A stretch of DNA of 53,098 nt from Magnetococcales bacterium HCHbin5. Lineage in GTDB: Bacteria > Pseudomonadota > Magnetococcia > Magnetococcales > Magnetaquicoccaceae. Where the stretch lies: the NCBI GenBank assembly GCA_002753505.1, contig PEAG01000016.1, forward strand, positions 1 to 53,098. The letters are read 5' to 3'. The notes beneath the pieces were generated by a model. That model was not told the DNA's origin. It saw only the letters and a list, made by a program, of their open reading frames with translations, and did no database searches. Every line of letters begins with the position of its first letter. Position 1 is the first letter of the stretch. The translations under genes and the position numbers were made by a program. Below are positions 1 to 27,034 of this stretch, in pieces.

Positions 1-164
1 TCGGTCGGGCTGCCGCCCTCCAGGAGTGCCCCTGCGGGGCGTTTTGGGCGCGCTGCGCAAATTTCCTGCGGAAATTTGCTTCGGTAAAAGCGCGCCCTTG
101 CATGCAGGGGCTTTGCCCCTGCACCCCACCGGGGACCGTGACGGTCCCCGGACCCCTGCAATTG
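1..164 (+). repeat. Structured repeat arm R0 (type I), left-truncated composite
   Basis: This G/C-rich arm begins at the window edge within the end of a spacer and runs from GTCGGG to CCCCTGCAATTG. It contains successive hairpins: a CGCCCC-type stem, a long stem GGGCGCGCT/AGCGCGCCC enclosing GCAAATTTCC-TGC-GGAAATTTGC, then GCAGGGGC-TTT-GCCCCTGC, then a palindrome with arms CCGGGGACCGT/ACGGTCCCCGG. It is followed by an A-rich flank with AAAAGATTA. The AGGAGTG tag marks it as type I, the same subtype as the right arm at 25266-25427, so it is probably the right half of a composite element. Nothing else is seen in 1-230. Confidence 0.85.
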
Positions 165-230
165 TTTTAAAAGATTAAACAACAGCCGGTACACGTTGCC
201 AGCGAACGATTGAACAAACGGATATATGAG

Positions 231-9450: not shown

Positions 9451-10241
9451 GCGAGTTGATCAACAAGCGTGGGGTTTACATCTTTCCCAATTTATTGACC
9501 ACGGGGGGGATGTTTTTCGGGTTTTATGCCATCATGGCGGCTTTGGGGAAGGATTATGAGCGCAGTGCCCAGGCCATTGTAGCGGCTGGGGTCTTTGATG
9601 CGTTGGACGGGCGGGTTGCGCGTGCCATGAATGCGGCGTCGGCCTTTGGCAAGGAGTATGACAGTCTGGCGGATTTTCTCTCTTTTGGTATTGCGCCGGC
9701 GGTTTTGGTTTATTTATGGGCCTTGGAGCCGTTTCACCGCTTGGGGTGGGCGGCGGCCTTTTTGTATGCGGTTTGTGGTGCGTTGCGGTTGGCTCGTTTC
9801 AATGTGCAGCAGCACGTGATACAGGATGAGCGGGTTTCCAAGCGTTATTTTCAAGGTTTGCCCATTCCGGCGGCGGCCATTATTGTCTCTGCCATTATTC
9901 TTTTCTACCAGGAGTTGGGCATTCATGCAGAGGGGGGGTCTACGGTTGGGTTGTGGCGGTGGTTGCCGTTGATGTTGACCTTCATGCTGGGCATTTTGAT
10001 GGTCAGCACCATTCGTTTTCGCAGCATGAAAGATTTTCACTGGCATCGCAAGCGGCCTTTTCTGACCTTGGTGGGTGCGGTGGTTTTTATCGCGGTTTTG
10101 ACCATTCAGATGGCCTCCACGCTGTTTTTGATGAGTGTGGCCTATCTGCTCTCTGCTCTGCACAGTCATCGGGAATATTTGCGTCTGTTGGCGGAGGGCA
10201 AGGAGGTGGAAGAGGATGAGGTGCAGGATTTGACGGTTTAG
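9447..10241 (+). CDS. pssA: CDP-diacylglycerol--serine O-phosphatidyltransferase
   Basis: This 264-residue polytopic inner-membrane enzyme makes phosphatidylserine from CDP-DAG and serine. It carries the CDP-alcohol phosphotransferase signature DG-x2-AR-x8-G-x3-D-x3-D, seen as DALDGRVARAMNAASAFG then KEYDSLAD. Several hydrophobic helices follow, and the C-terminal tail is acidic. It starts inside the psd stop (ATGA). Codon third positions are very rich in G and T compared with genes to the right of the adjacent repeat. The stop lies 17 bp before composite element 1. Confidence 0.96.
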   Translation: MSELINKRGVYIFPNLLTTGGMFFGFYAIMAALGKDYERSAQAIVAAGVFDALDGRVARAMNAASAFGKEYDSLADFLSFGIAPAVLVYLWALEPFHRLGWAAAFLYAVCGALRLARFNVQQHVIQDERVSKRYFQGLPIPAAAIIVSAIILFYQELGIHAEGGSTVGLWRWLPLMLTFMLGILMVSTIRFRSMKDFHWHRKRPFLTLVGAVVFIAVLTIQMASTLFLMSVAYLLSALHSHREYLRLLAEGKEVEEDEVQDLTV

Positions 10242-10258
10242 CTGCATCTTTTTTTAAA

Positions 10259-10706
10259 CAATTGCAGGGGCCTGGGGACCGTCACGGTCCCCAGTGGGGT
10301 GCAGGGGCGAAGCCCCTGCATGTAACGGGCGCGCTTTCCCAAAAGCCCATTTGCGCAGCAAATGGGCGCAGCGCGCCCAAAACGCCCCGCAGGGGCACTC
10401 CTGGAGGGCGGCAGCCCGACCGAAAGCTGGCCAAATTGGGGAGGGCTTGGGAAAAGAGCGTTCCTGGCCTTATCTCAAACAAAACTTCGAACATCCGCAC
10501 GTTCTGGTTTCTTGTCCAAACATTTTCCATAACTGAAACGTGCGAGTCGGGCTGCCGCCCTCCCAAGGTCGCCCCTGCGGGGCGGTTTTGTGCGCGTTGC
10601 GCCCATTTTCTGCGAAAATGGGCTTTGGGAAAACGCGCAGTTCATGCAGGGGCTTTGCCCCTGCACCCCACTGGGGACCGTGACGGTCCCCAGACCCCTG
10701 CAATTG
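10259..10706. repeat. Composite inverted-arm element 1 (type I arm / spacer / type II arm)
   Basis: The left arm 10259-10420 (reverse orientation, type I, AGGAGTG tag) and the right arm 10546-10706 (forward, type II, AAGGTCG tag) face each other across a 125-bp spacer (10421-10545). Each arm contains several hairpins. The long one is GCCCATTTGC/GCAAATGGGC in the left arm and GCCCATTTTC/GAAAATGGGC in the right, both with a TGC loop. Both outer ends finish in CAATTGCAGGGG next to T- or A-rich flanks. The spacer shares blocks such as CTGGCCAAATT and TTCTGGTTT with the copies at 13761 and 25140. No transposase is present. The element fills the convergent gap between pssA and lpoB. Confidence 0.9.
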
Positions 10707-10748
10707 TTTATTAAAAGATACGGACGGGCGAGCGGGCGGGCGGCCAGT

Positions 10749-11387
10749 TTAACGGGTCGTGGTCTTGCGAATCTCCTTCTCATCCGCCCACTCAACTACA
10801 CCCGACTCGATGTCCGTCAACCGCAAACTGAATTTATAGTAGACATCGTGAAAATCCGGCGTCCGCTTGACAATGGAGCTGATGCTGCCCACCAGACGAA
10901 AATCCGCCCCCTCCATCCTGCCCATCTTCTTGGCCGAACTCTTTTTATACAACCCACTCTCATTCTGCCGCCCCAACTCATCCACCTGATCATCCATCTC
11001 CGCCATATCCACCACAAACCGAACCAAACCACTCTTGGTCAGTTGGGTCAAAATGGTGTCCGTAATGGCACGGGTGTCTATGTATTCGCTGCTCTTGTTC
11101 TTGACATGGTCCACCGTAATCAATGGCCGATGACGACCAGTGATCGCCGGCGACTGCAACAGGGAACGGGTCATGCTCTCCGCAATCATCTGCAAATCGG
11201 TGGAACCAAAACTGTTGCTCACACTCTCCACCGCCTTGGGATCACCATACTGGACACGACCCGAACCCACCACTCCCGGCCCGGAAGCCGGCCCCGATGC
11301 GGTGACACACCCGGCCCATACACCCATGGCCAACAATAAACCCAACCGCCACCCCAACCGCCGAATCCCGACACTCATACCATACAT
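10749..11387 (-). CDS. lpoB: LpoB-like outer-membrane lipoprotein, penicillin-binding protein activator
   Basis: The predicted mature protein resembles LpoB, which spans the periplasm to stimulate PBP1b (212 aa). A short basic start (MYGMSVGIRRLGWR) precedes a hydrophobic stretch and a lipidation cysteine in VWAGCVTA near residue 31. The LpoB fold follows (RSLLQSP...RPLITVDHVKNKSSEYIDTRAI), with GADFRLVGSISS and a C-terminal FSLRLTDIESGVVEW. The ATG at 11387 has AGGGAG six bases upstream; longer frames lack a signal-peptide-like start. It is the last gene of a three-lipoprotein unit with the YcfL-like gene, the pairing known from enterobacteria. Confidence 0.88.
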   Translation of the reverse strand: MYGMSVGIRRLGWRLGLLLAMGVWAGCVTASGPASGPGVVGSGRVQYGDPKAVESVSNSFGSTDLQMIAESMTRSLLQSPAITGRHRPLITVDHVKNKSSEYIDTRAITDTILTQLTKSGLVRFVVDMAEMDDQVDELGRQNESGLYKKSSAKKMGRMEGADFRLVGSISSIVKRTPDFHDVYYKFSLRLTDIESGVVEWADEKEIRKTTTR

Positions 11388-11459
11388 GACACACTCCCTT
11401 TCAGCCGCTGCCTGTTCCCCACAAACCATAACACACCAAACCCACCAGAACCCCACCCA

Positions 11460-11891
11460 TCAATGGGCAAACCACTCGGTCGGGGTACTGTTGTTGGGCG
11501 CGTGCATCTCAATGCGAAAATCCACCGCCTGGGGCGTTGGAGCCACCGTCTTGATAAACTGCCGCTGCTTGCCATGCAACAATAACGGCTTCCACGCCTC
11601 CTCCTCCAGGACGAGCCCCGACGCATCCAACCACCTGAACCGATAGGAAAGGGATTGATCATCCAGGGTGGGATTGATCACCTCCGCCTGGATATAAAGC
11701 AAATGGTTGCGCCGCTCCACCCGAATCTCCCCCGGTTGCAGGTCAAGCATCAACCCCATCTCCTCCACCTTGCTGGCCACATCCGGGCTCCTCTGGGGCA
11801 AAGATTGACAGCCACCAGTCAACACAATACATAACAGACCCAACAGAATGGCACCGTTCGGTTGGTATCGACGACTACAATGGGGCATCAT
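11460..11891 (-). CDS. ycfL: YcfL-like (DUF1425) lipoprotein
   Basis: This 143-residue protein has a basic N-terminus, a hydrophobic segment (ILLGLLCIVL) and a lipobox-like LTGGCQS. A compact beta-rich domain follows with VINPTLDDQSLSYRFRWLDASG. The family (COG5633/DUF1425) is encoded next to lpoB in many gammaproteobacteria; its exact role is unknown. The ATG at 11891 has AAGGAG nine bases upstream; a second ATG directly follows. It lies 72 bp upstream of lpoB and 72 bp downstream of the COG3014-type gene on the same strand. Confidence 0.82.
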   Translation of the reverse strand: MMPHCSRRYQPNGAILLGLLCIVLTGGCQSLPQRSPDVASKVEEMGLMLDLQPGEIRVERRNHLLYIQAEVINPTLDDQSLSYRFRWLDASGLVLEEEAWKPLLLHGKQRQFIKTVAPTPQAVDFRIEMHAPNNSTPTEWFAH

Positions 11892-11963
11892 CTGCGTGGA
11901 CTCCTTGAAGAGTGCGGTAACAAAAAACCCGCCGTTGCGGCGGCAAAACAACATGAAGAGTCG

Positions 11964-13379
11964 CTACTTTGTCAGAGCGCGCCCCCCCACCACCGGCAAA
12001 CTCCCGTACGAAGAGCCCGGCGTGTTGGCCAGATACAGCGTATCCCCCACCACCCGAATGGGTACCAGTTGATAACGCCCCCCGACATCCAACGCCATGC
12101 TGGCCCGGTTTCCGTAGGCAGTGTCAAACGAGAGGGTGTACCGACCCGGTTTCAACGCAGTACGGCCAAGAAAAATGGTGGCAGGCAAGGTGCGCCAGGA
12201 ACGTTCATCCGCCGATTCCAGCACCAACCCTGTCAACATGACAGCCAGGCCGACCAGTTCATTACCCTTTCTGTTGGCCTGTCCCTGCGCAATCCCCCGA
12301 CTGGCCGCCCGCAGGGTGCTGCGCAGCACGATGCCGGGCAGATCATCCCGCAAGGTCCGACGCGCCATGGCATCCACACTGGTCACCGCCGCCATCTCCA
12401 CCCATTTGTTTCCATCGATCTGCAACGGACCCGGGTGATAAGAGGCGGAAGGATTATCCGGCACCACCGGGAAGGAGAGGGTGACCAACCCCGCCGATGG
12501 AATGGGCAATGGAATCATGACGGAAGAGCGCGCCGGTGCCAGCCCCCCCTCCAGCACAAACAGCAGATCGGTTTTGCCAGCCGCCAACCGCTCCCGCCGC
12601 CGGTCCAACTGCTTCAACCCCTCCTCCAGCAACGGAATATCAGGACGCAACTCAATGGCCTGCCGGTATCCTGGTGCCGCCAACCCCGGCTCCCCCAACG
12701 CCTCGTAGACAAAACCGGCCAAATAGTGACTGAAAGCGTTCTGGTAGCTGTTCTTGAGCGCAATCACCTGGGGATCATTCAAAGTATCGACCGGGTAGCC
12801 CTGCAGCTCTTTGACACTTCTCCGCACATGCCGATTGCCGCTTTCCGCCTCCTCCTGCATCACCTTTTTGGCATGCAGATCGGCGATGATGGCCTCCCGT
12901 TCGTGGGTTTTTTTGATTTCGGTGCGGGCCGCCTCCCAATCTCCCAGCGCAATATGATCCAAGGCAATCTGGGCCGTCAACAGCACCTTTTCATAATCGT
13001 ATCCCTCATAGGTGCGCACCTTGTCGTTGACAACGACGCTGCCAATCGCCCCCAGCAGCTTGCCGGGATCGGTGCGGGCCTGTTCCTCCCACTGTTGCAC
13101 CTTCTGGTCCGCCGCCATCCAACTGCTGCGGCTGTCGGCAAACGCCCCTTGCAGGCGCAACAGCTCGCCCTTTTCCATATAGTAGAGCAGATCCTTTTCC
13201 GGATCGGCATTATTTTTTTCCAGGGTTTGCAGGGCCAGGTCCGGCCTGTTGACCCTTACCAACGATGTCGTGGCCCTCAGTTCTGCATCATAACTGCGCA
13301 GGGCCCCTGCGCAGCCGGTCTGCAGCAGTGGCAACAGCAACCACAGCACCCCAAGAGACAGTGTACGCTCTCTTTTCAA
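11964..13379 (-). CDS. COG3014-type lipoprotein
   Basis: This protein (471 aa from the chosen start) has a TTG start at 13379, with AGAGGA five bases upstream. That start gives a textbook lipoprotein signal (KRERTLSLGVLWLLLPLLQTGC). An in-frame ATG at 13508 would add 43 residues before it. A helical TPR-like region (about 25-280) includes LGDWEAARTEIKK and NAFSHYLAGFVYEALGEPGLA. A beta-rich C-terminal half ends in SYGSLPVVGGRALTK. The family is uncharacterised and co-occurs with YcfL and LpoB genes in several proteobacteria, so a role in cell-wall synthesis is inferred. It is first in the trio. Confidence 0.82.
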   Translation of the reverse strand: MKRERTLSLGVLWLLLPLLQTGCAGALRSYDAELRATTSLVRVNRPDLALQTLEKNNADPEKDLLYYMEKGELLRLQGAFADSRSSWMAADQKVQQWEEQARTDPGKLLGAIGSVVVNDKVRTYEGYDYEKVLLTAQIALDHIALGDWEAARTEIKKTHEREAIIADLHAKKVMQEEAESGNRHVRRSVKELQGYPVDTLNDPQVIALKNSYQNAFSHYLAGFVYEALGEPGLAAPGYRQAIELRPDIPLLEEGLKQLDRRRERLAAGKTDLLFVLEGGLAPARSSVMIPLPIPSAGLVTLSFPVVPDNPSASYHPGPLQIDGNKWVEMAAVTSVDAMARRTLRDDLPGIVLRSTLRAASRGIAQGQANRKGNELVGLAVMLTGLVLESADERSWRTLPATIFLGRTALKPGRYTLSFDTAYGNRASMALDVGGRYQLVPIRVVGDTLYLANTPGSSYGSLPVVGGRALTK

Positions 13380-13536
13380 CAAAATCCTCTCTAATATCCT
13401 GAAATGGCCTGAGTCTGCTGCAAGGCCCCGAAGCCCCCCCCGGGTTGGACAAACCGTCACATCGCGAAAAAATATACCTTCCCCCTCTGCTCGGCAATAA
13501 GAATCCATGGCCCACTGGATTTTGTCGTTTGATCCT

Positions 13537-13580
13537 TGCAGCTGTCACGCTCCCCGGCGGCTGCAGGGGCAACGCCCCGT
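13537..13580 (-). repeat. Degenerate fragment of the repeat arm
   Basis: The stretch includes TCACGCTCCCCGGCGG followed by GCAGGGGCAACGCCCC. These match the end-proximal palindrome and the GCAGGGGC hairpin of the full arms, but the outer end and inner half are missing. It lies 20 bp left of composite element 2. The remainder of 13380-13600 shows no gene and no convincing promoter, although the COG3014-type gene must be transcribed leftward from here. Confidence 0.6.
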
Positions 13581-13600
13581 GAACAGCTCCGCTCCAAACT

Positions 13601-14066
13601 ATTGCAGGGGTCCGGGGACCGTCACGGTCCCCGGTGGGGTGCAGGGGCAAAGCCCCTGCATGTAACGGGCGCGCTTTCCCAAAAGCCCATTTGCGCAGCA
13701 AATGGGCGCAGCGCGCCCAAAACGCCCCGCAGGGGCACTCCTGGAGGGCGGCAGCCCGACTGAGAGCTGGCCAAATTTGAGCGGGTTTGAAAAAAAACCG
13801 TTCCTGGCCTTGTATCAAACGAGAAGCTGAATATTCGAAGGTTCTGGTTTTTTATCCAAATATTTTCCACGACATAACCGTGCGAGTCGGGCTGCCGCCC
13901 TCCCAAGGTCGCCCCTGCGGGGCGGTTTTGTGCGCGCTGCGCCAATTTTCTGCGAAAATTGGCTTCGTAAAAGCGCGCAGTTCATGCAAGGGCTTCGCCC
14001 CTGCACCCCAGCAAGGGCTTCGCCCCTGCACCCCACCAGGGGGATGATCCCCCTGGACCCGCAATC
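13601..14066. repeat. Composite inverted-arm element 2 (type I arm / spacer / type II arm)
   Basis: The left arm 13601-13760 (type I, reverse), the spacer 13761-13885 (125 bp) and the right arm from 13886 (type II, forward) have the same order and orientation as element 1. The long hairpin of the right arm is GCCAATTTTC/GAAAATTGGC. The usual GGGGACCGT palindrome at the right end is replaced by CCAGGGGGAT/ATCCCCCTGG (14036-14056). A 25-bp tandem duplication precedes it. The element lies in the divergent gap between the COG3014-type gene and murF. Confidence 0.88.
13986..14035 (+). repeat. Two 25-bp direct repeats inside a repeat arm
   Basis: Positions 13986-14010 and 14011-14035 are identical 25-mers beginning GCAAGGGCTTCGCCCC and ending CACCCCA. 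Other arms have a single copy of this module, in the form GCAGGGGCTTTGCCCCTGC. It is a local duplication unique to this arm in the window. Confidence 0.9.
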
Positions 14067-14133
14067 CGTTTTGCAAGAGATGAAGAGAAGAGAAGATCCG
14101 ACAAAATCCTGGCCACTCCCCTGCAATAGTTTC

Positions 14134-14162
14134 AAGACAGAAGGCAGCTGTTGGGGTATAAT
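14134..14162 (+). promoter_or_regulatory. Probable sigma-70-type promoter for murF
   Basis: A consensus TATAAT (14157-14162) lies 17 bp downstream of AAGACA (14134-14139), which matches four of six -35 positions. Transcription would begin near 14169, about 50 bases before the murF ATG at 14218. This also excludes the in-frame ATG at 14161 as a start. It would drive murF-mraY-ftsW-murG. Confidence 0.6.
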
Positions 14163-14217
14163 GAAAGCCAGTGAACACTCGACATGCCCACCTTTCCAAC
14201 CGGACAAAAGGGGTCTT

Positions 14218-15618
14218 ATGGCTCTTACGCTTGCACTTTTCGGTGATACGACAACAGATGTGCCCCTGCGGGGCCTCTCCATCGACAGTCGAACCCTCCA
14301 ACCGGGAGAACTCTTCGCCGCTGTGCGCGGGGAACGGTTCGACGGACACCACTTTATTGAACAGGCCGTCGCCGCCGGCTGCGCCGCCGTGTTGGCAGAA
14401 CAGCCACCCGCAACACCCCCCCCGGTCCCGCTGCTGATCGTGGAAAATGTGCTGCAAACCCTGGGCGAGGCGGCCCGACGTTGGCGCGATCAGGTCAACC
14501 CCCTGGTGCTGGCCGTCACCGGCTCATGCGGCAAAACCACCGTCAAGGAGATGCTCACCCGCTGCCTGCAACAAAAATTTGCCAGCGTCCACGCCACCCG
14601 TGGCAACCTGAATAACCATATCGGCCTGCCCCTGACCCTGCTGGCCATGCCGGAAAACTGCCAGGCCCTGGTGGTTGAACTGGGCATGAGCGCAGCCGGC
14701 GAAATCGCCTACCTGGCACAACTGGCCAAACCGGATATCGGCATCATCACCAACGTGCAACCCGCCCACCTGGAAGCCTTCGCAAACCTCGACGCCATCG
14801 TCGAAGCCAAAGCGGAGTTGCTCGAAGCCCTCCCCACCCACGGCGTGGCCATCTTTCCCTTCGGGCAACCCTACACCCCGCGACTACAGCAAAAAGCAGG
14901 AGAGGTGAACACACGAACATTCGGCCCCAACCCACCCGCTGACATCTTCTACCGCAGCGCAACAACAACCGAACCCAACCCGCCGGAAAAAACAGCCGCC
15001 AACCTGTTCACCATCCATTGGCAAGCCGAACAAGATGGCGTACAAACCCGCCTGGGCCAGCACGGCGAACACCTGCGCCAAAACGCCCTGGCCGTGGCGG
15101 CCGCAGCCCGGGCCGCCGGCCTCACAACCAGCCAAATTGCAGCCGGCCTGGAAAACTTTGCACCACCAACCGGACGCGGAGGCATACGCCAAGCCCCCCA
15201 AGGCTGGCGCGTGGTGGATGACAGCTATAACGCCAACCCGGGCTCGGTACAAGCCGCCCTGCAAGCCCTGCCGGAACCCGCCCAACCGGGACGACGCATC
15301 GCCGTGCTGGGGGATATGCTGGAATTGGGCAAAGAGGCAGAAATGTTGCATGCAGGACTGCTCCCGGCCCTGATCAGCAGCGGCGTCTCCCTGCTGTTTA
15401 CCGCCGGCCCCCTGATGCAGGCCCTGCATCAAGCCGTACAAGCCCATCCCTGGCAGGCCGGAGAGCAGCCCATCACCGCATGGCATCGCCCCGACCCCGC
15501 CGATTGGCTTGAACAGATTGCACCCCAGCTTCAACCGCAAGATGTGGTGCTGGTCAAAGGATCCCGTGGGATGAAAATGGAACGTATCGTCAACAACTTG
15601 GTGACTCATGCTCTATAA
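14218..15618 (+). CDS. murF: UDP-N-acetylmuramoyl-tripeptide--D-alanyl-D-alanine ligase
   Basis: MurF adds D-Ala-D-Ala to UDP-MurNAc-tripeptide (466 aa). The N-terminal substrate domain has [20 protein letters not shown]. The ATP-binding P-loop is [14 protein letters not shown]. The central domain has [22 protein letters not shown] and [10 protein letters not shown]. The C-terminal domain has [15 protein letters not shown]. The ATG at 14218 follows AAAGGGG. It heads the first dcw block instead of following murE as in most bacteria. Its stop overlaps mraY by 11 bases. Codon third positions favour C and A. Confidence 0.97.
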
Positions 15619-16696
15619 TCTGCTCTTTCCGCTGAGCGACTACTGGTCGGCTCTGAACCTGTTCAAATATATTACTTTTCGCAGCATTGGCGCAACATTG
15701 ACCGCCCTGCTGCTCTCCTTTCTGGTGGGACCATGGCTGATCCGCTCTTTGCAAAAATTGCAAACCAGCGGACAACCGATCCGCAGCGACGGACCCCAGC
15801 GGCATATCCTGGAAAAAACCGGCACCCCCACCATGGGCGGCACCCTGATATTGCTGGCCATGGTCATCCCCACCCTGCTGTGGGCCAACCTGACCAACCC
15901 ATTCATTATCCTGGTGTTGTGTACAACCCTCAGCTTTGGTGCCATCGGATTCTGGGATGACTACCGCAAATTGACCCGGAAAAATACCAAGGGCATCTCC
16001 GCCCGTACCCGCTTTTTATTGCAAAGCGGCATCGCCCTGGCCGCCGCCTATACACTGCAAAATGTCGACCCTGTCGGCTCCTACGGCGGTCTGGCGATTC
16101 CGTTTTTTAAAAATCTCTCCCTGGATCTGGGCATACTGTTTTTTCCCTTTGCCATCCTGGTCATCGTGGGCACCAGCAACGCGGTCAATCTGACCGACGG
16201 CCTGGATGGCCTCGCCATCGGCCCCACCATGCTGACCGCCGCCACCTTTTTGATCATCGCCTACGTGACCGGCCACTCCCACTTTGCCAACTATCTCGGC
16301 ATCCCCTACGTACCTGGGGCGGGGGAGTTGGCCATCTTTTGCGGTGCCATGGTGGGAGCCGCCCTGGGCTTTCTGTGGTTTAACACCTACCCGGCACAGG
16401 TTTTCATGGGCGATGTAGGCTCCCTCGCCCTGGGAGCCGCCCTGGGCACCATCGGCATGATCACCCGCCACGAAATTGTGCTGGCCATCGTCGGAGGCAT
16501 CTTCGTGGTGGAAACCCTCTCGGTCATCGTCCAGGTCGCCTCCTTCAAACTGATCGGCAAGCGGGTCTTTCGCATGGCCCCCATCCATCACCATTTTGAA
16601 CTGAAAGGGTGGGCAGAACCCAAAATCATCGTCCGCTTTTGGATCATCTCCATCATACTGGCCCTGATCGGCATATCGACCTTGAAAATTCGCTAA
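15608..16696 (+). CDS. mraY: Phospho-N-acetylmuramoyl-pentapeptide-transferase
   Basis: MraY transfers phospho-MurNAc-pentapeptide to undecaprenyl phosphate, making lipid I in the inner membrane (362 aa, about ten helices). Motifs seen are TPTMGG, the catalytic [39 protein letters not shown] and the [11 protein letters not shown] histidine motif. The start lies inside the end of murF. The next gene is ftsW 24 bp downstream; murD, which normally lies between them, is absent. Confidence 0.97.
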
Positions 16697-16720
16697 GATC
16701 TGGAAAAACAGAGGGAACAG

Positions 16721-17944
16721 ATGCAATTCAACCTGCTCAAGGACCGCTTGAAAAAAGCCAACCCCGCCAAATCGACGGCTGATCGGGAAAACACCGCCAA
16801 TACCGGAGATGGCCCCATGGATCTCTGGCTGGCCGGTACCGCCTTCGCCCTGCTGATCATCGGTCTGGTCATGGTCTATTCCGCCTCAGCCCCCATCGCC
16901 GCACGCAATTTTGGCGACGCCACCCACTTCGCCCTGCGCAATGCCGTCTTTGCCCTGGTGGGCATCGTCTCCATGGTCGCCATCAGCCGCCTGCCCGTCG
17001 ATTCCATTCGCTATCTGGGACGCATCGGCTTCTGGATCTCCCTGCTGCTCCTGGTGGCCGTGTTGATTCCCGGTATGGGACTGGAGGGCGGGGGCGCACG
17101 CCGCTGGCTCAACTTTCGTGTGATCACCGTCCAACCCTCCGAACCCTTCAAGGTGATGCTGGCCCTCTACACCGCCCACCTGATCGCCCAGGATGCCGGC
17201 ATGGTCCACCGTATCCGGGATGGCATCGTCTACCTGCTGGCCATCTTTGCCCTGGGAGCGGCACTGCTGATGGCTGAACCGGACTTTGGTGCCACCGTCA
17301 TCAGTGCCGCCGTGGTCTTCGGCATTGTCTTCATCGCCGGCATCCCCCTCTCCTGGATCGCCACCCTGCTCACCATCGCCGTCCCACTGGCGGCCATGGC
17401 CGTCATCATGGCCCCCTACCGCTTCCGCCGCGTCACCTCGTTCCTCGACCCCTGGGACGACCCGCAAAACAGCGATTTCCAACTGGTTCAATCGCTGCTC
17501 TCTTTTGGCAATGGCGGCGTCTTTGGTACCGGGCTGGGACAGGGAGAGCAAAAACAGTTTTATCTGCCAGAATCCCACACCGACTTTATCTTTGCCGTCA
17601 TCGGTGAGGAGATGGGGTTGGGACTGGTCTGGTTGATTATTTTTCTGTTCGCGTTCCTCGTTTGGCGTGCCGTCCAGATCGCCCGCTTCAGCACCGATCC
17701 CTTTGTGCGTCTGAGCACCACCGGTCTGACCGTACTGATCGGTTCCCAGGCGGTTGCCAATATGGGGGTGGTGATGGGCCTCCTCCCCCCCAAAGGGTTG
17801 ACCCTGCCCCTGGTCAGCTATGGCGGCTCCTCTCTGGTCATCACGTTGAGTGCCATCGGCCTGCTGTTGGCCTTTTCCCGCACCGTCACCCTGCCCGACA
17901 AACCCAGAACATCAACCGCCAACCCACGGGAGAAAGCCTCATGA
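16721..17944 (+). CDS. ftsW: Division-specific lipid II polymerase FtsW
   Basis: FtsW is a SEDS-family peptidoglycan glycosyltransferase (407 aa) that works with FtsI at the septum. A polar cytoplasmic N-terminus of about 35 residues precedes ten predicted helices. Visible motifs are GGGARRWLNF, AEPDFGATVI, the catalytic-region FLDPWDDPQNSDFQLVQS, LPESHTDFIFAVIGEE and PLVSYGGSS. GAGGGAACAG precedes the ATG. It overlaps murG by ATGA, indicating coupling with lipid II synthesis. Confidence 0.96.
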   Translation: MQFNLLKDRLKKANPAKSTADRENTANTGDGPMDLWLAGTAFALLIIGLVMVYSASAPIAARNFGDATHFALRNAVFALVGIVSMVAISRLPVDSIRYLGRIGFWISLLLLVAVLIPGMGLEGGGARRWLNFRVITVQPSEPFKVMLALYTAHLIAQDAGMVHRIRDGIVYLLAIFALGAALLMAEPDFGATVISAAVVFGIVFIAGIPLSWIATLLTIAVPLAAMAVIMAPYRFRRVTSFLDPWDDPQNSDFQLVQSLLSFGNGGVFGTGLGQGEQKQFYLPESHTDFIFAVIGEEMGLGLVWLIIFLFAFLVWRAVQIARFSTDPFVRLSTTGLTVLIGSQAVANMGVVMGLLPPKGLTLPLVSYGGSSLVITLSAIGLLLAFSRTVTLPDKPRTSTANPREKAS

Positions 17945-19068
17945 CCGCCGAGGGAAAAAAATTGATCATTGCCGGTGGCGGAACCGGCGGCCATATTTTT
18001 CCCGCCATCGCCATCGCCGATGCCTGGGAAGCCAGTGGTGGCGAGGTGCTGTTTGTCGGCACCCCCCACGGCATGGAAAGCCGCCTGTTGCCTCAGCGGG
18101 GCAAACGATTGGAATTGCTGACAGTAGGGCAAATCAAAGGCAAGGGGCTGGCGGTCCGCTTGCGCACCCTGCTGGGCCTGCCCGCCGCCCTCTATTCGGC
18201 CTGGAAAATTATTCGCCACTACCAACCGGACGCCGTGTTGGGCATGGGCGGCTATGTCTCTGCGCCTACCGTGGTGGCAGCCCGGTTACTGGCCATTCCC
18301 ACCGCCTTGCATGAGCAGAATGCACGCCCCGGGTTGACCAATCGGCTGTTGGGCAAAATAACCGATCGGATCTTTGTCTCCTTTGCCGAGGCCATCCCTA
18401 CTTTTCAGGCTCAACAAACAGCCACAACCGCCCGGGCGTCACGGGTGGTTGTGACAGGCAACCCGGTTCGTACCGCCCTGCGGGAGGAGAGCCAACAGGA
18501 GGCCATTCTCGCCGGGGACCGCCCCTTCCGGTTGTTGGTTTTTGGTGGCAGCCAAGGAGCCCGCATATTCAGCGACCTGTTGCCCCCTACCCTGCAAAAA
18601 ATCATGGCCAGCGGCATGCCGGTGGAAATTCGCCACCAGGTACCTCAGGAGGATCTCGCCCGCGTGCAGGCCAACTACGAAAAACTGGGCATCACCGCCA
18701 CAGTTGCACCCTTTTTCCAGAACATGGCCGCTGCCTACCGGGAAGCAGACCTGATCATCTGCCGGGCCGGTGCCACCACCGTGGCCGAATTGGCGACTGT
18801 GGGCAAACCCGCTCTCTTCATCCCCTACCCTTTCGCCGCCGATGACCACCAGACCGCCAACGCCCTGGCCATGGTACGGGCCAACGGTGGCTGGATGCAA
18901 CCACAACAGGCATTGACCATCGAATGGTTGACAGAGTTTCTGCTGGCACGCATGGCAGACCCAGAGGGGTTGATCGCCGCCGGACGACAGGCTTTGAGCC
19001 TGGCCACCCCCCGATCCGCCCAGCTGATTGTCGATCAACTCTTGGCCCTGATTGCAAAAAAATACTGA
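17941..19068 (+). CDS. murG: UDP-GlcNAc--lipid I GlcNAc transferase
   Basis: MurG makes lipid II by adding GlcNAc to lipid I on the cytoplasmic membrane face (375 aa, GT28 fold). The glycine-rich N-terminal loop is IAGGGTGGHIFPAIAIADAW. GMGGYVSAP and HEQNARPGLTNR follow. The C-terminal donor domain has VFGGSQGARIFSD and ICRAGATTVAELATVGKPALFIPYPFAADDHQ. The start lies in the ftsW stop. It is the last gene of the murF block; a 134-bp gap with a promoter separates it from rsmH. Confidence 0.97.
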   Translation: MTAEGKKLIIAGGGTGGHIFPAIAIADAWEASGGEVLFVGTPHGMESRLLPQRGKRLELLTVGQIKGKGLAVRLRTLLGLPAALYSAWKIIRHYQPDAVLGMGGYVSAPTVVAARLLAIPTALHEQNARPGLTNRLLGKITDRIFVSFAEAIPTFQAQQTATTARASRVVVTGNPVRTALREESQQEAILAGDRPFRLLVFGGSQGARIFSDLLPPTLQKIMASGMPVEIRHQVPQEDLARVQANYEKLGITATVAPFFQNMAAAYREADLIICRAGATTVAELATVGKPALFIPYPFAADDHQTANALAMVRANGGWMQPQQALTIEWLTEFLLARMADPEGLIAAGRQALSLATPRSAQLIVDQLLALIAKKY

Positions 19069-19164
19069 ATGCCGCCCGCAGGACAAGCCTTGTTTGCCCA
19101 GGGCCAAAAATATCGTTAACACCCCCGCACCCTCTCATGGAACCGTGCCTCCAGCCCACTTCCT

Positions 19165-19173
19165 TGCTATAAT
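19165..19173 (+). promoter_or_regulatory. Extended -10 promoter for rsmH-ftsL-ftsI-murE
   Basis: TGCTATAAT (19165-19173) is an extended -10 element with a consensus hexamer. No good -35 is seen at 16-18 bp, as expected for this class. Initiation would fall near 19180, 14-23 bases before the possible rsmH starts. It makes the second dcw block an independent transcription unit. Confidence 0.55.
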
Positions 19174-19202
19174 TTGTCGAAAACTGTGATTGAGTGAAAC
19201 CG

Positions 19203-20303
19203 ATGAGAGAGAAAGCCAGGGGGAAATCCCCCGCTTCAACCGCACCTGGAGCCAAACATCAGAGCGTTTTGATGCAAGAGGTGCTGGCGGCTCTGCGTCC
19301 CGTGCCAGGGGGAACCTATGTGGATGCCACCTTCGGCGACGGCGGCCATACGGAGGCCATCCTGCACCACATCGGCCCTGCCGGCCGGCTGTTTGCGCTG
19401 GATCGAGATCCGTCCGCCTTCCATCGAAATGCGGCACTGTTGGAGCGGTATGGAGAACAACTGACCGTCATCCATACCCCCTTCAGCCAGTTGAAAACGG
19501 TTTTGGCCGCGCAGGCTGTTGTGGCCGTCCACGGCATACTGTTCGACCTGGGGGTCTCCTCTCGACAATTGGATGAACCGGAACGAGGCTTCTCTTTCCA
19601 AAGCGATGGGCCCTTGGATATGCGCATGGATCAATCTGCAGATGCCCTGTCACCTCAGACCGCCTCTCTGCAAAAACAGACACCTTCTGAACGGATAACG
19701 GCCGCCACCATTGTGAACACCTTTGAAAAAGAGGCCCTGGCAGAGCTGTTTTTTTGTTTTGGCGAGGAGCGTCATGCCCGCCGTATTGCGGCAGCCATCG
19801 TCATGGATCGTCAACGGCAGCCCTTTACCACCACCCGGCAATTGGCCGCCCTGCTGGAACGGATCATGCCCGGCGGTCAGGCCGCCATTCATCCCGCCAC
19901 CCGGGTCTTTCAGGCGTTGCGCATCGCTGTCAATCGGGAACTGGAAGAGCTGCAAACCGGTCTCTCCCACGCCATGGAGCTGCTGACCGATGGGGGACGG
20001 GCGGTCGTGATCAGCTTTCACTCCCTGGAGGACCGGATTGTCAAACAGCTTTTCCGCCAGGCAACAGACCCTTTGCAACGCCCGCCGGGCCCGTCGGCAG
20101 GACCCCATTTGCTGGTTCAACCCCACGCCGTGACGCCCTCTTTCCGCCTGCTGACCCGCAAACCGCTCTCGCCCGGCCCGGCAGAGATTGGCAACAATCC
20201 CCGCTCACGCAGTGCCCGGATGCGGGCCATCGAGCGGTTGAGCGGGGGCCCCGGTGGCGGCGTAGCCGCCTTGCTGCCCGCCCATCTCCACGGCCAGCCA
20301 TGA
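19203..20303 (+). CDS. rsmH: 16S rRNA (cytosine(1402)-N(4))-methyltransferase
   Basis: RsmH (MraW) methylates N4 of C1402 in 16S rRNA using SAM (366 aa, longer than the usual ~315). Motifs are HQSVLMQEVL, the SAM-binding VDATFGDGGHTEAIL, FDLGVSSRQLDEPERGFSFQ, ALRIAVNRELEEL and ISFHSLEDRIVKQLFR. An insertion near residues 140-170 and a Pro/Gly-rich tail account for the extra length. The start is ATG 19203, with a GTG at 19194 possible; neither has a strong Shine-Dalgarno. mraZ, usually upstream, is absent. It overlaps ftsL by ATGA. Confidence 0.95.
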   Translation: MREKARGKSPASTAPGAKHQSVLMQEVLAALRPVPGGTYVDATFGDGGHTEAILHHIGPAGRLFALDRDPSAFHRNAALLERYGEQLTVIHTPFSQLKTVLAAQAVVAVHGILFDLGVSSRQLDEPERGFSFQSDGPLDMRMDQSADALSPQTASLQKQTPSERITAATIVNTFEKEALAELFFCFGEERHARRIAAAIVMDRQRQPFTTTRQLAALLERIMPGGQAAIHPATRVFQALRIAVNRELEELQTGLSHAMELLTDGGRAVVISFHSLEDRIVKQLFRQATDPLQRPPGPSAGPHLLVQPHAVTPSFRLLTRKPLSPGPAEIGNNPRSRSARMRAIERLSGGPGGGVAALLPAHLHGQP

Positions 20304-20569
20304 GACCGGGTTGGCCCATCCTCATGTTTTTGAGTGTTCTCCTGGTGTTGACAGCAGCCATCACCATCTCTTCCCGTGTCTGGATGCTGGAGAGTCATCG
20401 GGAGTTGACTCAGGAACAAAAACGGTATAACGAGCTCCTGGACAAGGAAAACGCCCTCCAGATAGAGTTGATCTCCCGCACCGACATGAACACCATCGAA
20501 CGCCGGGCCCGTCAGGAGCTGGGCATGCAGCCCCTTTGGCCCACCCAGTGGCGGGTGCTGAAACCATGA
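20300..20569 (+). CDS. ftsL: Cell division protein FtsL
   Basis: This 89-residue bitopic protein has a short cytoplasmic tail, one membrane helix (about 5-25, WPILMFLSVLLVLTAAITISS) and a periplasmic coiled coil (MLESHRELTQEQKRYNELLDKENALQIE). It ends in an RTDMNTIERRARQELGM segment typical of FtsL. FtsL joins FtsB and FtsQ in the complex that activates FtsWI. Identity rests on topology, length and position between rsmH and ftsI, with ATGA overlaps on both sides. Confidence 0.9.
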   Translation: MRPGWPILMFLSVLLVLTAAITISSRVWMLESHRELTQEQKRYNELLDKENALQIELISRTDMNTIERRARQELGMQPLWPTQWRVLKP

Positions 20570-23343: not shown

Positions 23344-23353
23344 GTATGCGCAC

Positions 23354-24889
23354 ATGATCGCAACCAGTTCTTGCCGGGCTTTGGCGGCTCGTTGTGAGGG
23401 GGTGCGGATGCAGGGCCCGGACCTGCCGATCACCGGCCTCAGTGCGGATTCCCGCCAGGTAGCCCCCGGTTTTCTCTTTGCGGCCCTGGCCGGCACCCGC
23501 ACGGTCGGCAGCCATTTTGTGACAGCGGCCCTGGCGGCCGGGGCGGTGGCTGTTCTCCACGATGGCAGTCTGGAGCTGCCGGCGTCGGTGGCGCAGTTCA
23601 GCCATCCCAACCCCCGTCATGCGTTGGCCCTGTTGGCGGCTGCCTTTTATGGCAATCCTGCCCGGCAGATGCGCATGGTTGCCATCACGGGCACCAATGG
23701 CAAGACCAGCACCGCAGCGATGGTGGAGGCCATTTTGTTGCAGCAGGGCGAACGGGTTGGTGTGATTGGCACGACCGGTATCCGTTATCCCGGCTTTGAG
23801 CAGGCCAACCCTCTGACCACCCCTGACCCGGTTGCCCTGCATCGGCAATTGCGCAACATGGCGGACAACCGGTGCAGTTCGGTGGTGATGGAGGTCTCCT
23901 CCCATGCCCTGGATCAGCATCGAACCGCCGGTATTCCCTGGCAGGTGGCTGTTTTTACCCATCTGTCGCGGGACCATCTGGACTATCACCAAACAGAGCA
24001 GGCCTATTTTGACAGCAAGGCGGCCCTGTTTTTGCGGGATGGCCCTGCCAGGGCGGTTATTGGTATCGAAGAGCCCTGGGGGCAGCGGTTGGCGCAGCGG
24101 TGTTTGGGGGTTTTGCCGGTTGCCACCTTCTCCATCGGCCCACCCGTACATGCGCCTGTGGTGCCGCCACTGACCGATCCGGCCCTTGTCGCGCAGCCGT
24201 TTTATGCGGACGACATTGCACTCTCCTGGCTGGGGTGTCGGTTCAGGCTTCACACTCCGGTTGGGACTCTGCCTGTCACCCTGCCCGGTGCGGGTCGGTT
24301 CAATGTGGCCAACGCGCTGGCCGCCGCCGCCACCGGTTGGCAATTGGGTATCCCCGAGGCGACCATTGCGGCGGGTTTGCGGCAGTTCAGCCCGGCACCT
24401 GGACGGATGCAAACCGTTCAGGGGGGACAGCCCTTTGCGGTCGTGGTGGATTATGCCCACACCCCGGATGCGCTGGAGCGGGTGTTGCAGACGGCCAGGA
24501 GTTTGACAACCGGTCGTATCATTGCTGTTTTTGGTTGTGGTGGGGAGCGGGACAGCGGCAAGCGGCCGTTGATGGGACAGGTGGCCGCCCGGCTGGCGGA
24601 GCAGACCATTGTCACCGATGACAATCCCCGTTCGGAAGATCCGCAAGCCATTCGCGACGCCATTGTGCAGGGCTGTCGACAGGAAGCGGGTTCGGTAGAG
24701 GTGTTGCCAGATCGGGCCGAGGCCATCGCGCACGCAATCGCCATGGCTGACCCGGGTGATGCGGTGATTATTGCAGGAAAAGGCCATGAAACCGTACAGA
24801 TAACGGCCAAGGGCTGTCAGCCTTTCGATGATGTGCAAACCGCACGTCATTGTCTGGCCGCCCAGGGGTGGAAAGAGGTTTTGCAATGA
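23354..24889 (+). CDS. murE: UDP-MurNAc-L-Ala-D-Glu--meso-diaminopimelate ligase
   Basis: MurE adds meso-DAP to UDP-MurNAc-dipeptide (511 aa). The N-terminal ITGLSADSRQVAPGFLFAALAG is followed by the P-loop ITGTNGKTSTAAM, then MEVSSHALDQHR, FTHLSRDHLDYH and VVDYAHTPDALERVL. The DDNPRSEDP segment carries the DNPR signature of DAP-specific enzymes. The ATG at 23354 lies 11 bp after the ftsI stop without a strong Shine-Dalgarno; an ATG at 23282 inside ftsI is less likely. Third positions are strongly G/T-rich. The stop codon abuts a repeat arm, so no murF follows. Confidence 0.96.
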   Translation: MIATSSCRALAARCEGVRMQGPDLPITGLSADSRQVAPGFLFAALAGTRTVGSHFVTAALAAGAVAVLHDGSLELPASVAQFSHPNPRHALALLAAAFYGNPARQMRMVAITGTNGKTSTAAMVEAILLQQGERVGVIGTTGIRYPGFEQANPLTTPDPVALHRQLRNMADNRCSSVVMEVSSHALDQHRTAGIPWQVAVFTHLSRDHLDYHQTEQAYFDSKAALFLRDGPARAVIGIEEPWGQRLAQRCLGVLPVATFSIGPPVHAPVVPPLTDPALVAQPFYADDIALSWLGCRFRLHTPVGTLPVTLPGAGRFNVANALAAAATGWQLGIPEATIAAGLRQFSPAPGRMQTVQGGQPFAVVVDYAHTPDALERVLQTARSLTTGRIIAVFGCGGERDSGKRPLMGQVAARLAEQTIVTDDNPRSEDPQAIRDAIVQGCRQEAGSVEVLPDRAEAIAHAIAMADPGDAVIIAGKGHETVQITAKGCQPFDDVQTARHCLAAQGWKEVLQ

Positions 24890-24941
24890 TTGCAGGGGTC
24901 TGTGAAACGTCACGCTCCCCAGCGGGGTGCAGGGGCTTAAG
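24886..24941 (-). repeat. Short repeat arm left of composite element 3
   Basis: This arm has only the outer part of the repeat: the TTGCAGGGG end, the palindrome module (CACGCTCCCC half intact, other half decayed as TGTGAAACG) and the GCAGGGGC hairpin. It is cut at GCCCCATATA. It overlaps the murE stop. A linker of about 38 bp, ending CTTTAAACG, joins it to element 3. Confidence 0.75.
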
Positions 24942-24979
24942 CCCCATATACGCTAACGTGATTGCGATCTTCCTTTAAA

Positions 24980-25427
24980 CGATTGCAGGGGTCTGGGGAG
25001 CGTCACGCTCCCCAGCGGGGTGCAGGGGCAGAGCCCCTGCTGAACTGCGCGTTTTCCCAAAGCCAATTTTCGCAGAAAATTGGCGCAACGCGCACAAAAC
25101 CGCCCCGAAGGGGCGACCTTGGGAGGGCGGCAGCCCGACGCGCACGGTTGTATCACGGATAAATGCTTGGATGAGAAACCAGAAGCTTCGGACATTCCGC
25201 TTTTTGTTTGACACAAGGCCAGGGGTGTTTTTTTTCCAAGCTATGCCCAATTTGGCCAGCTTTCAGTCGGGCTGCCGCCCTCCAGGAGTGCCCCTGCGGG
25301 GCGTTTTGGGCGCGCTGCGCCCATTTGCTGCGCAAATGGGCTTCGGTGAAAGCGCGCCCGTTACATGCAGGGGCTTTGCCCCTGCACCCCACCGGGGACC
25401 GTGACGGTCCCCGGACCCCTGCAATTG
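24980..25427. repeat. Composite inverted-arm element 3 (type II arm / spacer / type I arm)
   Basis: The left arm 24980-25139 (type II, reverse) and the right arm 25266-25427 (type I, forward) enclose a 126-bp spacer (25140-25265). The order of arm types and the spacer are inverted relative to elements 1 and 2. The end palindrome of the left arm has arms CTGGGGAGCGT/ACGCTCCCCAG, altered on both sides yet still fully paired. The right arm has the CCGGGGACCGT form. With the short arms on either side it fills the 735 bp between murE and murC, where no gene is seen. Confidence 0.9.
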
Positions 25428-25468
25428 TTTAAAAAGATAAAAGTATGGGTAGGATCACCATGGTAGCG

Positions 25469-25531
25469 CATATGGGGCTTTGCCCCTGCACCCCACCGGG
25501 GACCGTGACGGTCCCCGGACCCCTGCAATTG
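25469..25531 (+). repeat. Short repeat arm right of composite element 3
   Basis: This mirror image of the short arm at 24886 begins CATATGGGGC, has the GGGGCTTTGCCCC hairpin and an intact palindrome with arms CCGGGGACCGT/ACGGTCCCCGG, and ends in CAATTG. A GTTTAAAAAGAT flank on its left repeats to its right as TTAAAAAAGATTA. From 25532 to murC at 25625 there is A-rich sequence and an AAGGTG Shine-Dalgarno. Confidence 0.85.
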
Positions 25532-25624
25532 TTAAAAAAGATTAAAAAAATATGGGTATGATCACAACCATCCGAAGCCGCCCATACCCGGCGGTCGCGT
25601 TTTTTTGCTAAAAGGTGCCCCACC

Positions 25625-27034
25625 ATGTATGAAAAAATTCGCACACTCCATTTTGTCGGTATCGGAGGGATTGGCATGAGCGGCATTGCCGAAGTGCTGC
25701 TCAATCTGGGTTACCGAATCTCCGGTTCCGACATGGCAGAGAATGCCTCCACAGAACGACTGCGCCGGATGGGAGCCACCATCTACCTGGGACATCGAGA
25801 GGAAAATATCGTGGACGCCGATGTGGTGGTCCACTCCTCCGCCGTCACCCACAACAACCCTGAAATGCAGGCCGCCCGCCGACTGCGCATTCCCATCGCC
25901 CGCCGCGCCGAAATGCTGGCCGAATTGATGCGCATCAAATATGGTATCGCCATCGCTGGCACCCACGGCAAAACCACCACCACCTCGATGGTGGCCACCC
26001 TGCTGGGCCGGGCCGGCATGGACCCGACCGTGGTCAACGGGGGCATCGTCAAAGCGTTCGACAGCAATGCCCGCCTGGGACACGGCGATTTCATGGTGGC
26101 AGAAGCCGACGAAAGCGACGGCTCCTTTCTCAAACTGTTTCCCATCATCGCCGTCGTCACCAACATGGACCCGGAACACCTGGACCACTACGGCAGCTTT
26201 GATCAGGTGCGCGCAGCCTTCATGCGCTTTGTGGAAAAAATTCCCTTCTACGGCTTGGCCGTGCTCTGCCTGGATCACCCGGAGGTGGCCGCCATGGTGC
26301 CCAAACTCACCGACAAACGGGTGATCACCTACGGCCTGAACCCCGGAGCAGACTATCAGGCCATCAACATCAGAAGAGAAGCAGACCGTACCCGCTTCCA
26401 GGTGAAACGCCAGGATCCGGTACAAGGCACCTCTGCACTGCTGGGAGATGTGGGGCTGGCCATGCCCGGCCACCACAATATCTGCAACGCCCTGGCCGCC
26501 ATCGCCGTGGCCATGGAACTGGAAATTCCCTGGTCGGTCATCGACCAGTCACTGGATCAATACAAAGGGGTGAGCCGACGGTTTGATCTGCTCTGCAACA
26601 GCCCGGAACGGGTCATCGTCGACGATTATGCCCACCACCCCAAGGAGATTGCCGCCACCCTGCAAGGAGCCAGAGAGGGGTTTGGACAGGAGAGGCGATT
26701 GGTGGCCCTCTTTCAACCCCATCGATACAGCCGCGTCCGCGACCTGTGGTCAGAGTTTCTGGGCTGCTTCCGGCAGGCTGACCTGGTGCTGGTCGACCAT
26801 ATTCACCCCGCCGGAGAGAGCCCTCTGCCCAATATCTCCCCAGCCGAAATGCACGACCAACTGCTGACAGGCATTCAACAACACAGCGGCATCCCAACCG
26901 CCCCCCTGCCCGGCGGTGACCTGCTGGTCGAGGGACGACAGGAGCTGGAGGCACTGCTGCAACCGGGAGATGTCCTGGTCTTCCTGGGGGCAGGCAGTAT
27001 TACAAAAAAAGCCCGCAATTTTGCCAAGCCTTGA
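25625..27034 (+). CDS. murC: UDP-N-acetylmuramate--L-alanine ligase
   Basis: MurC attaches the first amino acid, L-Ala, to UDP-MurNAc (469 aa). The N-terminal Rossmann motif is FVGIGGIGMSGIAEVL. The ATP-binding loop is IAGTHGKTTTTSMVA. EADESDGSFLKL and TNMDPEHLDHYG follow, and the C-terminal domain has VDDYAHHPKEI and LFQPHRYSRV. AAGGTG seven bases upstream supports the ATG. It is the first gene after composite element 3. Its C/A-rich third positions contrast with murE on the other side. Confidence 0.97.
   Translation: MYEKIRTLHFVGIGGIGMSGIAEVLLNLGYRISGSDMAENASTERLRRMGATIYLGHREENIVDADVVVHSSAVTHNNPEMQAARRLRIPIARRAEMLAELMRIKYGIAIAGTHGKTTTTSMVATLLGRAGMDPTVVNGGIVKAFDSNARLGHGDFMVAEADESDGSFLKLFPIIAVVTNMDPEHLDHYGSFDQVRAAFMRFVEKIPFYGLAVLCLDHPEVAAMVPKLTDKRVITYGLNPGADYQAINIRREADRTRFQVKRQDPVQGTSALLGDVGLAMPGHHNICNALAAIAVAMELEIPWSVIDQSLDQYKGVSRRFDLLCNSPERVIVDDYAHHPKEIAATLQGAREGFGQERRLVALFQPHRYSRVRDLWSEFLGCFRQADLVLVDHIHPAGESPLPNISPAEMHDQLLTGIQQHSGIPTAPLPGGDLLVEGRQELEALLQPGDVLVFLGAGSITKKARNFAKP

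Follow-up and report, generated by a model that had tools for sequence, protein, structure and literature searches.

The spacer of a high-copy composite palindromic element in a Magnetococcales genome is open in one frame by descent and is probably a passive core

The 125-base stretch studied here is the middle of a repeat of about 470 bases, built of an arm, a core and an inverted arm, which occurs in more than 130 copies in a Magnetococcales genome. The spacer is most probably (about 0.75) the non-coding, unstructured and passive core of a high-copy composite palindromic element of the REPIN/MITE type, open by descent, drifted and exchanging tracts among its copies. The open frame that had been reported for the spacer is itself ordinary, the core being open by descent. 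Among known palindromic repeat elements, the one described here is a variant specific to its lineage, and its notable features are the mosaicism of the cores and its direction behind genes.

The window, i.e., the whole stretch of 53,098 nucleotides that was analyzed, contains three spacers with their arms and several further parts of the element (Table 1). The element begins with an arm of small palindromes, followed by a core of 115 to 127 nt and the inverted arm; by inspection, A and T are more frequent in the core than in the arms. The strand that carries the reported open frame is referred to as the A strand, and left and right are defined on it. The spacer of copy 3 is sense to both of its neighbors, a murE-like and a murC-like gene. 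The names murE, murC and murF are predictions from a reading of the translations.

Table 1. Parts of the composite element in the window (strand "-" or "+" is that of the open frame).
Feature	Coordinates	Strand	Remarks
Spacer, copy 1	10421..10545	-	A strand, open frame; 125 nt
Arm of copy 1, right in A orientation	10251..10420	.	array of short palindromes
Arm of copy 1, left in A orientation	10546..10720	.	
Spacer, copy 2	13761..13885	-	125 nt; before murF-like gene
Arm of copy 2	13596..13760	.	
Other arm of copy 2	13886..14062 (approximate end)	.	outermost stem unlike that of copy 1
Spacer, copy 3	25140..25265	+	126 nt; additional base near position 21
Left arm of copy 3	24970..25139 (outer end approximate)	.	
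Right arm of copy 3	25266..25440 (outer end approximate)	.	
Single arm of a further copy, cut by the window start	1..172	.	spacer outside the window
Solitary outer palindrome unit, left of copy 3	24868..24947	.	stop codon of upstream gene overlaps unit start
Solitary outer palindrome unit, right of copy 3	25462..25546	.	

The called stop codon of the upstream gene falls on the start of a palindrome unit, or no more than a few bases away from it, both in the window (24868-24889) and in the left flanks of three other loci (L050, L016 and L024). In four left flanks (L110, L131, L046 and L074), the composite element is accompanied by tandem solitary outer units, and locus-specific linkers are repeated together with the units. 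This pattern looks like a local duplication of the unit and the adjoining unique DNA.

The genome (G000; 4.19 Mb in 200 contigs) was searched with two exact 14-nt anchors from the inner arms, 100 to 130 nt apart. This search detected 132 places, compared with none in the reversed control; 127 distinct spacers were oriented and read, and 105 of these copies had full arms. Spacers of 125 or 126 nt accounted for 104 of the 127 (51 and 53, respectively). The exact anchors miss eroded copies, and blastn showed unanchored ones (e.g., C41 and C106). For a number of copies, the nearest contig end is no more than a few hundred bases away. The element thus probably interrupts the assembly, and the real copy number may exceed the count.

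The arms are rows of small palindromes whose stems co-vary. Among the 105 full copies, 10 stem column pairs were variable on both sides; nine of them had an r2 of 0.94 to 1.0 and the remaining one, in an outer stem, 0.59, compared with a mean r2 of 0.125 for 139 unpaired arm column pairs 3 to 60 nt apart. Over 79 stem pairs, 7,742 cells were unchanged, 312 carried Watson-Crick double changes, 26 were G-T and 81 were broken, where cells count copies and not independent events. The left and right arms of a copy did not co-vary with each other: the identity was 0.851 for own pairs and 0.850 for cross-pairs in the 105 copies. A long hairpin between both arms was therefore not supported as the selected unit, and the small palindromes are what is kept. 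The rarity of G-T pairs in the stems suggests pairing at the DNA level or hairpin-templated correction. Template switching at quasipalindromes is a topic of published work.

The orientation of the copies relative to genes was strongly biased. A gene was called on both sides of 62 of the 127 copies at the middle threshold, and 65 copies were excluded (32 with a short flank and 33 unresolved). The gene on the A-left side pointed into the element in 55 of the 62 copies, whereas the right gene was neutral (31:31). The resolved copies comprised 28 in tandem sense, 4 in tandem antisense, 27 convergent and 3 divergent arrangements; the tandem ratio of 28:4 has a binomial P of 2e-5. At looser and stricter thresholds the ratio of sense to antisense was 35:7 and 20:3, respectively, and an earlier version of the caller gave 45:10. 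Genes were called by a custom codon-usage score. For 14 of the 32 tandem copies, 28 called proteins were compared with Pfam, and 23 of them gave a match. These matches place one copy with a PALP-domain gene on one side and a tryptophan synthase alpha gene on the other, and another copy between genes for a DegT-family aminotransferase and a dTDP-sugar epimerase. Replication direction alone was rejected as the factor that sets orientation, as neighboring copies on a contig agreed in just 32 of 53 cases. The direction bias may be caused either by polar insertion or by the loss of copies that disturb transcription. It could also reflect a transcribed function that these tests missed.

Such a function is the content of the strongest alternative, according to which the element acts as a transcribed 3' untranslated RNA (a terminator, a 3'-end protector or a processing site), with the spacer tolerated in it as a linker. 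The direction of the left gene and the tandem bias are consistent with this, as are the strictly kept stem pairing and the positions of copies between the PALP-domain and tryptophan synthase alpha genes and, from translations, between the murE- and murC-like genes. However, the 26 G-T cells against 312 Watson-Crick double changes point to pairing or copying at the level of DNA and not of RNA. Moreover, no promoter-like site was detected around copy 3, and terminator-like sites there were not in excess (2, compared with 1.6 in shuffles). Positions 10000-25800 of the window gave no Rfam match at an E value of ≤1. We regard this alternative as possible but unlikely.

The cores vary more than the arms and are mosaics. 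The mean pairwise identity in 2,000 random pairs of the 105 full copies was 0.80 for the spacer and 0.93 for the arms; finding copies by anchors biases conservation beside the spacer upward, and the arm figure excludes the anchors. Linkage was studied at 33 two-state sites of the spacer. The mean r2 was 0.114 below 10 nt, 0.018 to 0.029 in the bins of 50 to 99 nt and 0.004 at 110 to 119 nt (0.004 to 0.03 overall beyond 50 nt), and all four combinations were present in 481 of 528 site pairs. None of 1,000 permutations of the positions gave as strong a fall of r2 with distance. Little linkage between variable spacer sites is thus left past about 50 nt. Recurrent mutation alone would be independent of distance, indicating that the copies have exchanged short pieces. 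Gene conversion or another form of recombination would be the route.

A reading that seeks to explain all of these features at once holds that sequence is copied between elements, tens of bases at a time, by a process coupled to transcription or templated by RNA or a single strand. The approximately 130 cores would then form one recombining population within a single genome, with little linkage past 50 nt, copying would treat each arm palindrome as a Watson-Crick unit, and transcription of the upstream gene would polarize insertion or survival. We consider this reading improbable.

The sequence-only reading had proposed that the spacer may matter as sequence, for example as a binding site or as RNA. 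This found no support. RNAalifold on the 127 aligned spacers gave an energy of 0.0 and no pair on either strand. Conserved pairing with covariation was not detected in the spacer, the highest r2 between spacer columns being 0.64 for columns 2 nt apart. Rare variants left no protected block (variance/mean 0.54); the test is weak, because no more than three alleles can be counted per column. Distinct rare alleles were more numerous per column in the spacer (0.94) than in the arms (0.74 and 0.66). The spacer drifts more than the arms do. In 60 related genomes there was no convincing match to the spacer, though 32 matched other parts of the element. The view that the spacer is conserved and hence constrained does not hold. 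Random drift in other copies, which had been named as evidence against any constraint, was largely what we observed, except that the copies are mosaics and not independent lineages. Given the direction bias, the spacer may still act within an element that is transcribed.

RIP and RIB elements are REP-associated elements that bind nucleoid proteins. A spacer that likewise serves as a protein binding site, for instance for a nucleoid protein, would be in line with the A and T richness of the core and with the high copy number in intergenic positions. It is at odds with the unprotected distribution of rare variants (in that weak test) and with the 60 relatives, in which arm-like arrays were present but the spacer was not convincingly matched. 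We consider a binding site highly improbable.

The open frame was confirmed in the window. One frame is open in all three spacers (reverse, reverse and forward for copies 1, 2 and 3, respectively) and runs into the arm, giving the peptides WTRNQ/WIKNQ/WMRNQ, FEIRPG/FDTRPG/FDTRPG and NLAS(F/S)(R/Q)SGCRPPG. The reported gapless alignment over at least 35 codons is valid from the Trp codon, with about 33 codons in the spacer and the rest in the arm, but not from the spacer start: in copy 3 an additional base precedes the Trp codon, so that the common frame begins at Trp. A recount from this codon of the differences between copies 1 and 2 gave 6, 9 and 9 at codon positions 1, 2 and 3, close to the earlier hand count of 6, 8 and 9. 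The conservation of the spacer is only relative. Copies 1 and 2 are identical at 95 of 125 spacer positions (30 differ), compared with 159 of 164 positions in one arm, and 15 of their 16 changed codons are non-synonymous. The statement that the frame is open in all copies applies to the three in the window, but 28 of the 127 genomic copies have a stop within the spacer in that frame.

Across the spacer and 60 nt of added arm, the frame is open in 99 of the 127 copies, and the other five frames average 0.8 to 1.1 stops. Mononucleotide shuffling leaves any one given frame open in about 12 of 127 copies, and six frames exist; taken alone, an open frame is therefore unsurprising. The openness of 99 copies is accounted for by descent from an open founder. 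The spacer lengths modulo 3 are split 55/52/20, and since lengths of 125 and 126 nt occur almost equally often, the copies enter the arm in different frames.

Tests of nonsense and non-synonymous changes were limited to the first 84 alignment positions, ahead of the part that varies in length. With a transition weight of 3, five distinct stop-creating alleles were found in the reported frame, compared with 5.87 expected, and the other five frames ranged from 3 (6.17 expected) to 10 (9.07 expected). The ratio of non-synonymous to synonymous alleles relative to opportunity, a check that had been proposed for all genomic copies, was 1.03 for the 127 copies, indicating no purifying selection on this frame; the ratio in the other frames was 1.03 to 1.23. 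Variability at the three codon positions was 0.154, 0.140 and 0.237 (permutation P = 0.09). Mutations do not avoid breaking the frame, and purifying selection on one frame, which is expected of a protein-coding gene, was not detected in the genomic copies. The earlier judgement that protein selection has little support was thus borne out by the nonsense alleles, the ratio of 1.03, the length classes and the periodicity. That the spacer and the following arm encode a small protein under selection is scarcely credible: the 99 open copies, the stops in the other five frames and the slightly more variable third positions speak for it, but nonsense alleles at the level of chance, the ratio of 1.03, the periodicity P of 0.09, the frame shift into the arm between the 125- and 126-nt classes and the non-synonymous changes between copies 1 and 2 speak against it.

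A composite DNA query matched 32 of the 60 relatives, in arm parts among the rows listed (ten candidates scored per genome). Those arms of relatives that were read enclose or precede sequences other than this core. A sequence-only model of the spacer, built from 64 of the 127 spacers, reached a minimum of 107.8 bits among the 57 own copies that were scored. It gave eight weak matches in 7 of the 60 relatives (17 to 21 bits; E values of 4e-4 to 8e-3) under stricter filters and with at most 57 candidates per genome, settings that may miss weak relatives. The stretches around the three best of these (L241 to L243) show no arms by eye. The exact core pattern had no match in genome contigs or viral contigs, and a distant blastn search of the composite had none in plasmids or phages, in searches that may exclude records of the own or very near genomes. 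The inner arm was found in at least eight named records, from two Magnetococcales MAGs, among the matches listed. At seven loci of the MAG YD0425bin7 (L233 to L235 and L237 to L240), the same inner palindrome is mostly followed by a short stretch of its own that is similar among them, often starting with ATGCAC, and then by other DNA; six of the seven have no inverted arm in the 330 nt printed.

At copy 2, by eye, the gap before the murF-like gene contains no such element in two relatives (G001 and G006), which are the only clean comparison. A third relative (G004) has a different palindromic repeat before the same gene, and the locus of a fourth (G003) stops short of the gap. At copy 1, the flanks of the relatives are dissimilar by eye, so that no clean comparison of presence and absence is available, and G006 has its own arm-like array there. 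No clean target-site duplication was seen in the 60 of 97 flank pairs read by eye, and the ends merge into further repeated units. A non-exhaustive search identified no mobilizing enzyme or parent transposon. The lone Y1 transposase-like match in the own genome (L225, contig G000:C130) had no palindromes of the element in its locus, with flanks of up to 1.5 kb per side, and RAYT was therefore rejected as the mobilizer. This match lies beside frames that, from their translations, are predicted to resemble a tyrosine recombinase and an IS91-type transposase. An arm is present in just one (L222, in G006) of 12 Y1 loci from 12 genomes; this was judged to be due to chance, because G006 has many arm candidates (206 in an initial look).

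Several known systems resemble the element. MITEs are short, non-coding, lineage-specific elements with inverted-repeat ends and many copies. The element shares the short non-coding build, the inverted arms, the many copies and the lineage specificity, but a parent transposon and a clear target-site duplication were not seen in the non-exhaustive search. BIMEs (bacterial interspersed mosaic elements) consist of modular palindromic units between genes. Such units, solitary and in tandem, are present here as well, but unit sequences, size and core differ. A search of the literature, judged by title and abstract start, found no report of such a palindromic element in Magnetococcales among the papers listed.

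REPINs are, in the parts of the source consulted, REP doublets that form hairpins (PMC3116915). The element has the two inverted palindromic units, the spacer, the many copies and the location between genes, and it further resembles REPINs as described there in its high-copy conserved palindromic arms, less conserved spacer, compensatory stem changes and non-autonomous nature (PMC3116915). In contrast, its arms are about 170 nt long with several palindromes, compared with one short REP in the REPIN (PMC3116915), its spacer of 115 to 127 nt has no conserved structure, and the two arms of a copy do not show compensatory changes with each other. A Y1 gene flanked by the same palindromes, as in the REP-RAYT system, was not found in the own genome. 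According to the parts consulted of another source, REPs occur mainly between unidirectional and convergent genes, and some REP dimers have conserved spacers (PMC3733652). The GTAG/CGTC-tagged REP dimers are thus similar in placement and, in some cases, in the conservation of spacers, but for their stems the frequency of G-T pairing is pointed out (PMC3733652), whereas here nearly all of the stem changes are Watson-Crick double changes. Placement is also directional here, and no direction is reported for those dimers in the parts of PMC3733652 consulted.

The passive-core reading can be put as follows. Within this single Magnetococcales lineage, the element would have spread as non-autonomous elements of the REPIN/MITE type do. 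The founder core would have been open in one frame by chance and would then have drifted. The dispersed copies have swapped short tracts, as the decay of linkage with distance shows, probably by gene conversion or another form of recombination. Drift together with such exchange would make the copies resemble each other without selection on the core. The pairing within each small arm palindrome is kept, as are the position and direction behind genes, both seen in the copies; insertion polarity or the loss of copies disturbing transcription may keep the direction. We counted against this reading the lack of a mobilizer, a parent or a clean target-site duplication, the direction bias, the third-position variability (P = 0.09) and the comparison at copy 2, with just two clean relatives and another palindromic repeat in G004.

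These results remove a false small-gene or small-RNA candidate that, with more than 100 occurrences in one genome, is at risk of being annotated. The 127 copies in a single genome form a natural data set on sequence exchange among dispersed short repeats, and the same set bears on whether stem pairing is kept at the DNA or the RNA level. Their biased direction behind genes offers a testable starting point for explaining the insertion of such repeats or their effect on transcripts.
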